Position numbers and translations under genes: made by a program. The notes beneath the pieces are model-generated. The model ran no database searches. It was given only the letters and a program-made list of their open reading frames with translations, and had not been told where the DNA came from. This document shows, one piece after another, positions 394 to 12,192 of a DNA stretch of 12,192 bases. How positions within the stretch are numbered: the stretch's first letter is position 1; each line of letters starts with the position of its first letter. Source of the DNA: an uncultured Elusimicrobia bacterium (GTDB lineage: Bacteria; Elusimicrobiota; Elusimicrobia; Elusimicrobiales; Elusimicrobiaceae); NCBI GenBank assembly GCA_945483375.1, contig CALYRQ010000008.1, forward strand, positions 1 through 12,192. The letters are read 5' to 3'.

Positions 394-1314
394 TTATACT
401 TCAAAAGAACATTTTTCTGGGAACATGCTTTGTAGATAACGGGCTAATTTTTCTCTGTCCGCCTTTGTACATTGTTCCGAATCATTTAAACAAACTAAAC
501 GCGGCCTGTACTTTTTTATTCCCCGCGCATAATCCTGCCACAGCTCCCACACTAGGCTGTCGCTTCCGAACCAACGCGATTTACGTGTATACCGCCACAC
601 AGCTTTGCCAAGCGCGGCCGATACCCCCGCAAAGACATAACGGCTTATATCCGTTTCCGCCCGGAAACGCGACGCGCAGGTAGCGGTCAAAAGCGGACGA
701 AACAAACGCCAAGCTTCCAAACAACCGCTTTTTACATAAGCGTGTATATTATGATGAGGCTCCAAGGGAAAATGTGCGTCTTTAAACGTCTGCGACAATA
801 ACATTTGCGCAGCCAGCAGCCGCCTGCCGTATAAGGAAGACGAGTAATCTTTATTGGCAAACGTGGTAACATAATTCACGGCCAAATCTTTTTGCGGGAA
901 AAAATAGGAACGCGGAATCGGGCGAAACACAAAGGTGTCATCGTTCGCCAACAAAAAATGTTCGGACAAGTCATGCCACCGGACCAATCCTGCTTCAATG
1001 GCATAAGCATTAAAAGTGGGCAGGCAAGAAGAAGGCATAAACTCGTTATGTGTCAGTATTTTAAGACGGGGGTGGCAAATGTTCAGCCACGCGGGACACT
1101 GCCCGTTTGTTACCAATACAATTCGCGTTACCCACGGCAAAAAAAGTTCCGCGCCGCGCAAAACATAGCGCAGTTCGTCAGACTGAACGAAACGGGCCTC
1201 CGGCGGGATGGGCAACCCCAATCGTTCCGCCCATTTGTTTCGTACGCGAACAAACTCAAGGTCGTTTCCATCTACCCACAGCACCACCAAATCCACAGGA
1301 AAAGCATTCGTCAT
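394..1314 (-). CDS. Stealth-family sugar-phosphate transferase (capsule/exopolysaccharide phosphotransferase)
   Basis: The 306-residue protein matches the four conserved regions of the Stealth family, which includes bacterial capsule hexose-1-phosphate transferases and the catalytic part of eukaryotic GlcNAc-1-phosphotransferase. CR1 is DLVVLWVDGND (8-18). CR2 spans about 44-140 and includes SDELRY (45-50), PWVTRIVLVTNGQ (60-72), LPTFNAYAIE (98-107) and the acidic NDD (124-126). CR3 contains EPHHNIHAYVKS (185-196). CR4 is CLNDSEQ (275-281) through FPEKCSFE (298-305). By family knowledge it would transfer a sugar phosphate from a nucleotide sugar to a growing glycan, making phosphodiester-linked surface polymer, probably at the cytoplasmic membrane face; the actual sugar is unknown. 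The start ATG overlaps the stop of the upstream glycosyltransferase (ATGA), with GAGG a few bases upstream, so translation is probably coupled. No convincing terminator is seen downstream. Confidence 0.88.
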   Translation of the reverse strand: MTNAFPVDLVVLWVDGNDLEFVRVRNKWAERLGLPIPPEARFVQSDELRYVLRGAELFLPWVTRIVLVTNGQCPAWLNICHPRLKILTHNEFMPSSCLPTFNAYAIEAGLVRWHDLSEHFLLANDDTFVFRPIPRSYFFPQKDLAVNYVTTFANKDYSSSLYGRRLLAAQMLLSQTFKDAHFPLEPHHNIHAYVKSGCLEAWRLFRPLLTATCASRFRAETDISRYVFAGVSAALGKAVWRYTRKSRWFGSDSLVWELWQDYARGIKKYRPRLVCLNDSEQCTKADREKLARYLQSMFPEKCSFEV

Positions 1315-2282
1315 CTAAAAATCCTCGTCCAAAAAAATACGCTCCGGCGGCCGCATAATTGTACCGCAAAAAACAACAATTTCCACCGCCAATAGAACAC
1401 GCCCCTGCACAGCGGCAGATTTTCGCGCGCCGCGGTCCACGCGTTTTGAAGTAACGCTCCGTGCTTGTTCCGCACAGCCGGCGAAAACTTGCGAAAGCGG
1501 CAAATCCCCCACACCACCATCAAAATCCACTCTCCGGCGAGGGCCGCATTCCATATCCCGCGAGCCAACAGCGACTCCCGCAAATACAACAGATTGCGTA
1601 AAATGCCCACTGCCATATTTTCCGGACTGGAGGTAATCGCGCCCGCAACTCCTTTGCGGTAAATGTACAGTTCACGCTTTACAAGCGCAATTTTACGCGC
1701 CAAGCAAAACCCTTGCGTAACAAACGCCAAATCTTCCGCCACCTGCCCGTTCAAAAAAGCAAGTCCGTGCGCACGCAAAAAATCCAGCCGCCACAGTTTG
1801 CCCCAAACAACGGAATCATAATATCCGCATAAAAACTTTTCCGCCGGAGAATCCCCCGGATTTTTATAAAAACGCGACGCACAGCAAGCCGCCTGAAAAG
1901 TACGGGTTTTATCATCAAACTCTTTAAAAAAACATTTGGTAATGTCGGCGTTTTCTTTTTCCGCCGCATCGAAAAGAACCTGCAGATACTCCGGCTCCGC
2001 CCAGTCGTCCGCGTCCACAAACGCAACATATTTTCCGCGGGCTTCGGCCAGCAGCCGGTTGCGTGCGGCGGCGACACCGGCGTTGGCTTGTTCTATAAAC
2101 CGCAGCCGGTGTTCGAGCCGCCCGACGGCCCGCAGGACCTTGGCGGAGGAATCGCGGGAACCGTCGTCCAAACAGATAATTTCAAAATCGGTAAATGTTT
2201 GCGCAGATAAAGACGATAAACATTGCTCCAGATATTTTTCCGCATTATAAACGGGAATTAAAACGGACACTTTAGGGGACAT
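1311..2282 (-). CDS. Family 2 glycosyltransferase (GT-A fold)
   Basis: The protein has 323 residues if started at the ATG at 2282-2280. I chose this start because a perfect GGAGG lies four bases upstream (CGGAGGAACTATG) and because the protein then begins at the usual GT2 N-terminus, MSPKVSVLIPVYN. The same frame extends upstream to 2387, but that part is low-complexity hydrophobic sequence without a good ribosome site. GT2 hallmarks: VSVLIPVYN (5-13), DDGS (39-42), N-A-G-V-A-A-A-R-N (67-75), the metal-binding DADD (90-93), and WGKLWRLDFL further on. The C-terminal third is hydrophobic and basic, so the enzyme may associate with the membrane. It should add one sugar from a nucleotide-sugar donor to a lipid-linked or surface glycan; donor and acceptor cannot be read. 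It is coupled by ATGA overlap to the Stealth gene, so the two probably build one phosphoglycan. Confidence 0.88.
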   Translation of the reverse strand: MSPKVSVLIPVYNAEKYLEQCLSSLSAQTFTDFEIICLDDGSRDSSAKVLRAVGRLEHRLRFIEQANAGVAAARNRLLAEARGKYVAFVDADDWAEPEYLQVLFDAAEKENADITKCFFKEFDDKTRTFQAACCASRFYKNPGDSPAEKFLCGYYDSVVWGKLWRLDFLRAHGLAFLNGQVAEDLAFVTQGFCLARKIALVKRELYIYRKGVAGAITSSPENMAVGILRNLLYLRESLLARGIWNAALAGEWILMVVWGICRFRKFSPAVRNKHGALLQNAWTAARENLPLCRGVFYWRWKLLFFAVQLCGRRSVFFWTRIFR

Positions 2283-2385
2283 AGTTCCTCCGATAAGCAA
2301 AACGCTCCCGCACACAAACGGGAGAAGAAGCACGGAGGATAAAATGGGAAGAAAAAAGCAGGCTTCTTGTAAAGCCCACCGGAAC
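2283..2385 (-). promoter_or_regulatory. Leader of the glycosyltransferase gene, with two small hairpins
   Basis: Between the structured RNA block and the glycosyltransferase start, the minus strand holds three things. A short terminator-like element has GGCTT (2376-2372) pairing with AAGCC (2365-2361), extendable by a G-U pair, with six Ts at 2357-2352 after a three-base gap. A hairpin CTCCCG/CGGGAG (2324-2319 with 2310-2305) follows. The ribosome site GGAGG is at 2291-2287. No open reading frame with support is seen here. Confidence 0.4.
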
Positions 2386-2418
2386 AAAAAGGGAGCAACA
2401 AAAACGGCTGTCTGCTCC
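2386..2418 (-). terminator. Intrinsic terminator-like hairpin at the end of the candidate RNA
   Basis: On the minus strand GGAGCA (2418-2413) pairs with TGCTCC (2397-2392), extendable by a G-U pair (2412/2398). It is followed by C and then five Ts (2390-2386). A competing terminator overlaps it: ACGGCTGT (2451-2444) pairs with ACAGCCGT (2411-2404) and is followed by Ts to 2400. Either could stop leftward transcription about 100 bases before the glycosyltransferase start. Confidence 0.55.
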
Positions 2419-2540
2419 GAGCCACATCACTAACCCAGGACAAACAGCCGTAGCCCCTGCCGTAAAAAATACGGCAGGGAGCATTCAGCGCAAAACAATC
2501 GGGTAATTAGGCCGATTATTTTGCGCTTAAAAACGGCTGT
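2400..2540. repeat. 12-base direct repeat flanking the RNA core (AAAAACGGCTGT)
   Basis: Exact copies of AAAAACGGCTGT occur at 2400-2411 and 2529-2540. The single complement, aaACAGCCGt at 2442-2451, lies between them and can pair with either copy: 8 bp with the left one, 10 bp with the right one. This gives two mutually exclusive folds and is the main reason to suspect a switch. Confidence 0.8.
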
Positions 2541-2657
2541 TTTTGGAGTGATGTGTGCCGCGCAAAAACGCAGCTCAACCTGTTCCGCACAGGCTTCCAA
2601 AAACAGCATAAAATTGTGAAAGCGGACAACGCTTTCAGGTCCGCCTACGCGGACTTA

Positions 2658-2685
2658 ATTATTATCATAACAAATTTTTTGTAAA
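2658..2685 (-). promoter_or_regulatory. Leftward sigma-70-type promoter for the candidate RNA / glycosyltransferase unit
   Basis: Minus strand: -35 TTTACA (2685-2680, five of six to consensus), a 16-base spacer, and -10 AATAAT (2663-2658, five of six). Transcription would begin near 2651, just at the first hairpins of the structured block. The whole stretch is AT-rich compared with its surroundings. Confidence 0.5.
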
Positions 2686-11553: not shown

Positions 11554-12033
11554 CTAATTAAAATGAAATGTTTTACATACGCCGGCGCATTTGGGATGCG
11601 TACCCGAACATTCTATTTTACCGGGGTTCGTGGATTGGTCCAGCCATACTTTAAACAAACATCCGTTCTGCGCGCCGCTGGAACACTGGGAGCCAATCCC
11701 GCCATAAATCACCCAGCCGGAGGCTTCCGTTCGCGAGGATAAATTATCAATGCAGGTTCCGTTGGAGTAATCCTCCTGCCCGCTGGCGGAGGCGGAACGC
11801 TTGTCCCCCTTGGGAACGGAAATATCCAAATCATTCAAATTGTCCGTATACGTACCATTAGCCATATAGTAGGCTTCCTGTGCGTCTTTAATACCCTTTA
11901 AAATCGGCCACATGGCGCTCATGCGGCTCTTCATAACGGCTGTCTCATACTGGGGCAATGCCACCGCCGCCAAGATACCGATAATTAAAACGACTACCAA
12001 CAGCTCTATTAACGTAAAACCTTTCATTTCCAT
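11554..12033 (-). CDS. Type IV pilin / pseudopilin-like protein with class III prepilin leader
   Basis: 159 residues. The short leader MEMKG is followed by FTLIELLVVVLIIGILAAVA, with the prepilin peptidase site between Gly5 and Phe6 and the conserved Glu at mature position 5 (Glu10 of the precursor). The first about 25 mature residues form the hydrophobic helix that anchors the subunit in the inner membrane before assembly. The rest is a small globular head with six cysteines (94, 117, 125, 142, 149, 153), suggesting disulphide bonding outside the cytoplasm. Many such single-gene pilins occur in Elusimicrobium-like genomes, and this resemblance underlies my taxon guess. No assembly genes (ATPase, secretin, peptidase) are nearby, so it must use machinery encoded elsewhere. 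The start is taken at the first ATG; Met3 is equally possible since neither has a strong ribosome site. It could be a minor pilin or a type II secretion pseudopilin. Confidence 0.9.
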   Translation of the reverse strand: MEMKGFTLIELLVVVLIIGILAAVALPQYETAVMKSRMSAMWPILKGIKDAQEAYYMANGTYTDNLNDLDISVPKGDKRSASASGQEDYSNGTCIDNLSSRTEASGWVIYGGIGSQCSSGAQNGCLFKVWLDQSTNPGKIECSGTHPKCAGVCKTFHFN

Positions 12034-12152: not shown

Positions 12153-12180
12153 ATGGTATCAAAAAAAAAAAACGGGTCAA
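12153..12180 (-). promoter_or_regulatory. Possible pilin promoter with homopolymeric spacer
   Basis: Minus strand: TTGACC (12180-12175), a 16-base spacer that includes 12 consecutive Ts (12172-12161), then TACCAT (12158-12153, four of six to consensus). An alternative reading uses TTGATA (12162-12157) as -35. Transcription would leave a leader of about 110 bases that contains the compound inverted repeat. Confidence 0.35.
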
Positions 12181-12192
12181 GGCCTTGTAAAC

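Follow-up and report, generated by a model that had tools for sequence, protein, structure and literature searches.

Organization of the locus

The window, as we call the whole 12,192-nucleotide stretch analysed here, contains a block between the hpf gene and two minus-strand genes, which encode a family-2 glycosyltransferase and a Stealth protein. The block is free of genes, as the first-pass annotation had it. Three listed ORFs enter it: two are short (61 and 70 amino acids), and one is the glycosyltransferase ORF extended to a TTG, the ATG of this gene lying at 2282 behind a Shine-Dalgarno sequence. The block harbors an RNA element that is divergent from hpf. In the RNA, upstream hairpins are followed by helix P2 enclosing P3 and P4, the segment J4/2, hairpins P5, P6 and P7, a U run, two terminator-like hairpins, the Shine-Dalgarno sequence, and the ATG. 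The features are listed in this order:

2658–2685, minus strand: candidate promoter TTTACA-16-AATAAT
2664–2672, minus strand: extended -10-like TGTTATGAT, overlapping the candidate promoter
2617–2654, minus strand: two upstream hairpins (2639–2654 and 2617–2637) located 5' of P2, outside the covariance model R1
2401–2616, minus strand: conserved element of the leader RNA, matching R1 in full at 193.4 bits (E 6.8e-53)
2596–2606, minus strand: P2 5' arm CUGUUUUUGGA
2577–2596, minus strand: P3 hairpin of the three-way junction, pairing kept and sequence variable
2557–2574, minus strand: P4 hairpin of the three-way junction
2547–2555, minus strand: J4/2 barcode CACAUCACU, the complement of the P7 loop in its own copy
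2537–2547, minus strand: P2 3' arm UCCAAAAACAG; together with the next CCGU it also complements the P7 5' arm (alternative stem)
2487–2527, minus strand: P5 hairpin, loop CC-UAAUUA-C at 2503–2511 with a 6-nt palindrome at 2504–2509
2453–2482, minus strand: P6 hairpin, pairing kept and sequence variable
2404–2451, minus strand: P7 terminator-like hairpin, its loop carrying the second barcode AGUGAUGUG (2423–2431)
2399–2411, minus strand: P7 3' arm and U run (ACAGCCGUUUUUG)
2352–2380, minus strand: second terminator-like hairpin with T6 in the interval between P7 and the gene (called at 2357–2380 by the terminator scan)
2305–2324, minus strand: further terminator-like hairpin before the glycosyltransferase start, from the terminator scan
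1311–2282, minus strand: family-2 glycosyltransferase, the next gene downstream, ATG at 2282–2280 with Shine-Dalgarno sequence GGAGGAACT before it (Pfam scan input 1311–2279)
394–1314, minus strand: Stealth protein, the following gene; CR1 and CR2 above the cut-off, CR4 just under its cut-off

An identical stretch of 13 nucleotides, CGGAGGAACTATG, is present at the start of the glycosyltransferase gene (2280–2292) and at the start of hpf (2909–2921).

The minus strand of 2386–2651 folds with a predicted energy of -127.9 kcal/mol, compared with -81.9 ± 4.6 kcal/mol for 200 shuffled sequences (z -10.0), none of which folded as well; the plus strand reaches z -8.5 against its shuffles. The predicted minus-strand fold is composed of P2 around P3 and P4, forming a three-way junction, followed by P5, P6 and P7, with additional hairpins upstream. 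The junction agrees with the first-pass annotation, apart from a further 9-bp stem proposed to close it, which was not recovered: P2 itself is the closing stem, 11–12 bp long. The promoter suggested earlier, TTTACA-16-AATAAT, is present; such a match alone is no better than chance (1 versus 0.8 in shuffled sequences). P7 with its U run (2399–2451) is conserved in the family. The simple terminator scan of the window called two further hairpins downstream and did not call P7, because it permits loops of 8 nucleotides at most.

Comparison with Rfam 15 at gathering scores, a check proposed with the first-pass annotation, returned no family in the window, and the same scan of 18 other loci with copies of the element (113 kb) yielded tRNAs only. 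Models of 6S RNA, tmRNA, RNase P and SRP RNA had no match in the window, a dedicated search found no tRNA or tmRNA there, and the GEMM model of c-di-GMP and cGAMP riboswitches matched neither the window nor the other loci scanned. Permissive matches to rli60, DnaX, RAGATH-10, RT-6 and BSR0653 were all far under gathering score and were rejected. Two unannotated Staphylococcus phage records, 83% identical over 54 nt of the AT-rich promoter side, were taken as chance. Among open-licence publications on riboswitches or structured RNAs of Elusimicrobiota, no such leader appears in the titles or the first lines of the abstracts.

A family of leaders in Elusimicrobiota

The covariance model R1 was built from 28 homologues, including the window copy, which is therefore also a member of its seed. 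By blastn, relatives turned up in 23 of 61 genomes, every one in the genus of the window. Within this genus, R1 detected the element in 63 of 66 genomes, counting that of the window, from no more than 36 scored candidates in each. Across Elusimicrobiota, with up to 7 candidates scored per genome, 93 of 340 genomes were positive: 62 from the window's genus, 18 from genus g15 of the same family, 12 from family f21, and one from family f2. The distant f2 copy is missing most of P5 and has kept the barcode pairing described below, as judged by eye. Six genomes representing the same-family genera g12, g13, g14 and g16 had no R1 match; the negative genomes of this family include a one-contig genome of 1.6 Mb with 80 pilin-like matches. 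An exact-pattern scan matched at least 120 stretches of genome contigs and no viral contigs. Among the matches listed, 76 of 80 loci are titled Elusimicrobium, Elusimicrobia, Elusimicrobiaceae, Elusimicrobiales or Elusimicrobiota, and four 'uncultured bacterium'.

The number of copies per genome in related gut bacteria ranges from a few to about 130. Many of the sampled genomes are metagenome-assembled. The 1.7-Mb rumen genome G070 has 135 matches at E<=1e-3, of which 129 are full-length and score at least 57 bits. Genome G071 has 51 matches, 45 of them with at least 84 bits; two of these are cut at contig ends. The window's genome, which is 76% complete, contains three copies, and the two outside the window precede pilin-like genes. 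A non-redundant set of 122 copies from many genomes was compiled without one duplicate locus, two repeated rows, and weak, partial or reverse matches (three and three). Since the copies are related, counts over them are not independent events.

The covariation analysis of homologues, also suggested with the first-pass annotation, revealed compensatory changes throughout the structure. A MAFFT alignment of the 28 sequences, independent of the model, has double changes at 38 of 56 base pairs. An alignment of 121 copies from G070, which leans towards the model since it was fitted to it, has double changes at 48 of 56 pairs and a covariation score of 0.495, compared with 0.213 for shuffled sequences and 0.101 or less with slid partners. 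Paired cells over these 121 copies contain 649 G-U and 91 A-C combinations. This excess identifies the minus strand as the RNA, in agreement with the earlier strand call from G-U pairs, and together with the fold energy and the family-wide compensatory changes it bears out the minus-strand structured RNA. Unpaired stretches are conserved in the 5' leader, in J2/5, and in the linker before P6. The loop of P4 is not conserved and that of P3 is so in part (aGA in 60–90% of G070 copies); a ligand aptamer formed by P3 and P4 was rejected for this reason.

The element is positioned in front of genes. In G070, 112 of 120 copies precede an ORF resembling a type IV pilin (111 recognized by pattern and one by eye), as counted over 1.04 Mb of stretches chosen to hold copies and using 120 of 121 copies, with one cut copy dropped. 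The pilin gene begins 28–55 nt past the element (median 40). A strict pattern detects a pilin downstream of 49 of the 122 non-redundant copies, 25 of the 122 copies being from G070. Outside G070, the pilin motif lies within 330 nt downstream in 38 of 92 copies with enough downstream sequence, and pilins are the commonest partner. Glycosyltransferases follow about a dozen of the 122 copies by eye, three of them verified with Pfam. The partners other than pilins are family-2 and family-8 glycosyltransferases, polysaccharide pyruvyl transferase, an EcoRI-type DNA methyltransferase, an outer-membrane beta-barrel protein, and a PH-domain protein; three of nine further downstream proteins searched had no Pfam match. 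Genes resembling EcoRI-type adenine methyltransferases were observed behind the leader at loci L161, L141 and L074, the first of which was assigned with Pfam. Of the two earlier alternatives, a stand-alone RNA or a leader of surface-glycan genes, the leader is favored; it is one copy of a multi-copy family, whose partners are more commonly pilins than glycosyltransferases.

Of 119 G070 copies, 81 have an extended -10 motif in the 110 nt upstream, compared with 5.3 expected from shuffling, and 70 of these 81 sites lie 24–26 or 32–37 nt before P2. The corresponding counts in two other sets of copies are 48 of 93 (3.7 shuffled; set A2) and 9 of 26 (1.9 shuffled; set A3). At the other end of the element, 117 of 119 G070 copies have at least five T within the eight positions after P7. 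Judged from the sequence, the promoter, leader, intrinsic-terminator-like hairpin, and gene follow each other on the same strand in the order of an attenuator. The region 5' of P2 varies: in some copies it contains a hairpin (AAGCC..GGCUU), and in others the promoter is directly there. Copies with a promoter about 70 nt away often have an AGGAG motif and the AAGCC..GGCUU hairpin before P2. Attenuation by a leader peptide was considered, as AGGAG-like sites occur 5' of P2 in some copies, and was rejected; no conserved start codon or short ORF is visible by eye.

The pilin genes themselves are numerous. Counts of the pilin N-methylation motif are 57 in genome G000, at least 150 in G070, 114 each in G071 and G084, and 80 in G102; extreme pilin expansion thus also occurs in G102, where the leader was not found. 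The G070 stretches L271–L327 encode 173 pilin-like N-termini, with the RNA leader within 320 nt in 112 cases and absent from 61. Most of the 61 leaderless pilins have an upstream promoter-like sequence, TTGAC-cg-T12-GATATT, in which a T tract is placed between the -35 and -10 elements. Tracts within 80 nt of a pilin start are T12 in 49 cases, T13 in three and T10 in one, and six more sites are without such a start. The window holds a similar sequence, TTGAC-ccg-T12-GATACC (12161–12192, minus strand), upstream of its own pilin gene (11554–12033). The T-tract site in G070 looks like a second switch, of the slippage type.

Barcodes, P5 loops and alternative folds

Two features that the first-pass annotation lacked, the barcode complementarity and the self-complementary P5 loop, suggest a mechanism. 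The barcode is a segment of 9–10 nt in the three-way junction that is the Watson-Crick complement of the P7 loop of its own copy. A perfect Watson-Crick run of at least 7 between the segment 5' of the P2 3' arm and P7 of the same copy occurs in 116 of 121 copies, with a mean run of 9.0 over all 121; the f2 copy L075, in which the pattern used detects no P7, was left out of the 122. Combinations between copies reach a run of 7 in 1.4% of cases. The nine core positions of 116 G070 copies with runs of at least 7 contain three G-U pairs and five mismatches in 1,044 pairs, low counts which are favored by the choice of the longest Watson-Crick run as the register; G-U pairs are common in the other helices, unlike in the barcode helix.

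All 119 barcodes parsed from 120 G070 copies are distinct, which speaks against the barcode as a trans address shared within this genome. Barcodes within a Hamming distance of 2 form 33 pairs, compared with 17.5 expected from column shuffling. The barcodes are thus spread rather less than shuffled ones, and they provide no sign of avoidance of cross-talk. By eye, orthologous barcodes can differ between species, and some barcodes recur across species, partly at orthologous loci and partly elsewhere. Not every class retains the central CCAAA/UUUGG pairing of the antiterminator stem, again by eye.

Self-complementarity of the P5 loop takes unrelated forms: UAAUUA, UUAUAA, UUCGAA, UUGCAA, UCAUGA, GACG, and others. 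Loops were parsed in 246 of 248 copies, 120 of them from G070. Among loops of 8–12 nt, 28 of 33 distinct types contain a 6-nt palindrome, compared with 2.5 in shuffled loops (maximum 7 in 2,000 rounds); by copy, the count is 159 of 164 (75 of 77 in G070 and 84 of 87 outside). Among loops of 4–7 nt, 19 of 28 types (64 of 81 copies) contain a 4-nt palindrome, versus 6.9 in shuffled loops (maximum 13). Short control loops are near their shuffles, with 11 of 77 types versus 7.3 for P6 and 11 of 100 versus 9.5 for P3 and P4. For the 6-nt palindromes the control is limited, since long loops are nearly lacking in P6 and P3/P4 (one and four types, none palindromic). The commonest layout is two nucleotides, the palindrome, and one nucleotide. 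The flanks in the 164 loops of the 6-nt palindrome analysis are C..C in 74, G..G in 13, A..A in 6 and A..G in 5. The GACG class, which has no 6-nt palindrome, comprises 9 of 246 copies, and four of 120 G070 copies belong to no class. A YUNR turn is present in 27 of 44 loop types, versus 15.7 in shuffles (maximum 25), a weak excess.

Leaders that are 85% identical elsewhere may carry different P5 palindromes. Outside P5, leaders that share a P5 class resemble each other slightly more than other leaders do (identity 0.606 versus 0.587, reached in 0 of 300 label shuffles). A link between P5 class and pilin type was rejected, as the class does not track pilin similarity. Homotypic kissing of P5 loops would predict just this, self-complementarity that outlasts a wholesale change of sequence. 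The commonest palindrome, UAAUUA, has A-U pairs only and would kiss weakly.

Folding of partial and complete transcripts points to two alternative states. The calculations, made with ViennaRNA, describe equilibrium and not kinetics or termination; they covered 114 G070 copies with barcode runs of at least 8. In partial transcripts reaching to the P7 loop, the predicted probability is 0.96 for the barcode helix and 0.00 for P2. The barcode helix exceeds 0.5 in 114 of 114 copies and is part of a long stem formed by J4/2 and the P2 3' arm with P7. In complete leaders, the probabilities become 0.92 for P2, 0.91 for P7 and 0.07 for the barcode helix, and P2 and P7 each exceed 0.5 in 93% of copies. 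For the window copy, the minimum-energy folds of partial and complete transcripts show the same switch. The P2 3' arm with the following CCGU is complementary to the P7 5' arm and is conserved beyond the extent of P2. In silico, the antiterminator and terminator folds are mutually exclusive.

The contribution of the barcode was evaluated in 108 copies with runs of at least 9. When the loop barcode is swapped for that of another copy, the long stem exceeds 0.5 in 82 of 108 copies, compared with 108 of 108 with their own barcode, and P2 exceeds 0.5 in 23 of 108. As the long stem mostly survives the swap, the barcode would strengthen it without being its sole determinant. The complete fold leaves the two barcodes of these copies mostly unpaired, with means of 0.71 and 0.63 and with both values exceeding 0.5 in 86 of 108; the P5 loop is open in it (0.96).

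Proposed switch, alternatives and significance

We propose, with a probability of about 0.7, that 2401–2616 of the minus strand, as the 5' leader of the transcript for the glycosyltransferase and the Stealth protein, is an attenuator and belongs to a large Elusimicrobiota family placed most often before type IV pilin-like genes. The proposal builds on features read from sequences and predicted folds (the family, its strand and placement, covariation, barcode complementarity, the palindromic P5, and two-state thermodynamics), from which we infer actual termination or read-through, dimerization through P5, and feedback and its direction. Once the polymerase has passed the P7 5' arm and loop, the loop barcode would pair with the J4/2 barcode, and the P7 5' arm with the P2 3' arm, producing a long antiterminator-like stem and opening P2. 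After synthesis of the P7 3' arm, P2 and the P7 terminator would become the more stable fold. The fold that wins in time would decide between release of a leader RNA of about 215 nt and read-through. The switch may be tipped by a released leader, a ligand, a protein or the speed of the polymerase. The element would thereby act as a strand-displacement switch in cis with a locus-specific toehold, and the leader family looks like a natural set of RNA on/off switches. In the window, P7 may not be the sole control, because two more terminator-like hairpins precede the gene.

The P5 loops would kiss between leader RNAs in a homotypic manner. Through such a kiss, a leader RNA that has been released could influence nascent leaders of its own kind. 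We tentatively extend this to a self-addressing network, an idea that has a minor chance of being right: through its private barcode and homotypic kiss, a released leader would recognize nascent leaders of its own locus only and set their termination. The predicted contact consists of two barcode duplexes and one P5 kiss between identical RNAs. If true, it would amount to over 100 orthogonal, protein-free feedback switches of individual pilin genes in one small genome. To our knowledge, such sense-sense attenuation is known in no organism.

Several other explanations account for part of the data. The J4/2 and P7 loop barcodes might form a stable pseudoknot inside the terminated fold and not an antiterminator, as the barcode helix is conserved more strictly than the central part of the antiterminator stem, and pairing is also maintained in the variable upper stem of P7 (by eye). 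We regard this as unlikely, because a helix of 9–10 bp filling the apical loop would be strained, the P2 3' arm and CCGU retain their complementarity to the P7 5' arm beyond P2, and partial transcripts are predicted to adopt the long stem. The same terminator switch could instead be tipped by a small ligand, such as a cyclic dinucleotide, bound at the P2/P3/P4 junction or in the P5 region. Cyclic-dinucleotide riboswitches are located near pilus genes in Geobacter and C. difficile, and such a riboswitch would fit the attenuator layout and the conserved unpaired 5' leader, J2/5 and linker before P6. The unconserved P4 loop, the partly conserved P3 loop, the wholesale replacement of the P5 loop between classes, and the lack of an Rfam riboswitch match at gathering score make a riboswitch unlikely.

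Its promoter-to-terminator architecture and the further terminator-like hairpins after the window copy would also suit a stand-alone, trans-acting small RNA ending at P7, with a downstream gene that is incidental or has its own promoter. However, the pilin genes of G070 start 28–55 nt past the element, a gap into which a second promoter would scarcely fit, copies in other genomes are placed in the same way, and a search for Hfq found none in 14 genomes; we consider this reading rather improbable. Antitermination can also depend on proteins, as in the case of RfaH, LoaP and UpxY, and the leader could be a recruitment site for such a factor. The range of surface genes behind it (pili, glycans, an outer-membrane protein) would fit this view, but a search for NusG domains in the same number of genomes detected one gene in 13 and two contig-edge fragments in the other, with no paralogue, and there is little chance that this explanation is correct. 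As neither NusG paralogues nor Hfq were detected in the 14 genomes, an RNA-only switch is plausible. About 129 copies at many loci of one genome and near-perfect inverted repeats are reminiscent of repetitive or mobile DNA of the REP, MITE or cruciform type, with the repeats acting on DNA. Such an origin is very improbable given the excess of G-U over A-C, a strand-specific sign of RNA, the fixed position between promoter and gene start, and the lack of exact-pattern matches in viral contigs.

The proposed attenuator combines properties of several known systems. The attenuator of pT181, to which that of pIP501 is akin, chooses between a terminator and an antiterminator. As described in PMC3753616, RNA-RNA kissing with an antisense RNA acts on transcription in the pT181 leader, and orthogonality between members of an attenuator family is a design problem, for which a 7 x 7 orthogonal set was engineered in 2013. 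The element shares with pT181 a leader, here with a predicted choice between terminator and antiterminator and a predicted kissing interaction; unlike in pT181, where the antisense RNA is separate, the complementarity lies inside the sense leader, and P5 is self-complementary. More than 100 members are present in one genome, compared with the 7 x 7 engineered set.

The P5 apical loop, in turn, is similar to the dimerization loop (DIS) of HIV-1, which has nine nucleotides in a 2+6+1 arrangement; it has a 6-nt palindrome and keeps its self-complementarity through sequence change. According to PMC7357161, DIS kissing requires purines flanking the palindrome, and a GACG tetraloop kisses itself in murine retroviruses (MoMuLV). 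One P5 class likewise is a GACG tetraloop. In contrast to HIV-1 DIS, the P5 flanks are mostly pyrimidines, without the purines of the viral loop, and in contrast to the retroviral loops, P5 belongs to a bacterial chromosomal leader, with many different palindromes and predicted kissing. The element resembles GEMM riboswitches as a leader of pilus-related genes with a predicted terminator switch, and differs from them by the lack of an Rfam match and of a visible conserved aptamer core. Phase-variable promoter tracts switch single surface genes in other systems, and the T-tract promoters of G070 precede pilin genes without this leader.

We know of few structured leaders so often repeated in one genome. 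The palindromic kissing loops may represent a code for recognition between RNAs that evolved in bacteria whose 14 searched genomes yielded no Hfq. If our proposal is right, a 1.7-Mb genome contains more than 100 RNA attenuators with addresses of their own, a natural library which offers a testable idea of how well over 100 pilin-like genes could be controlled one by one.
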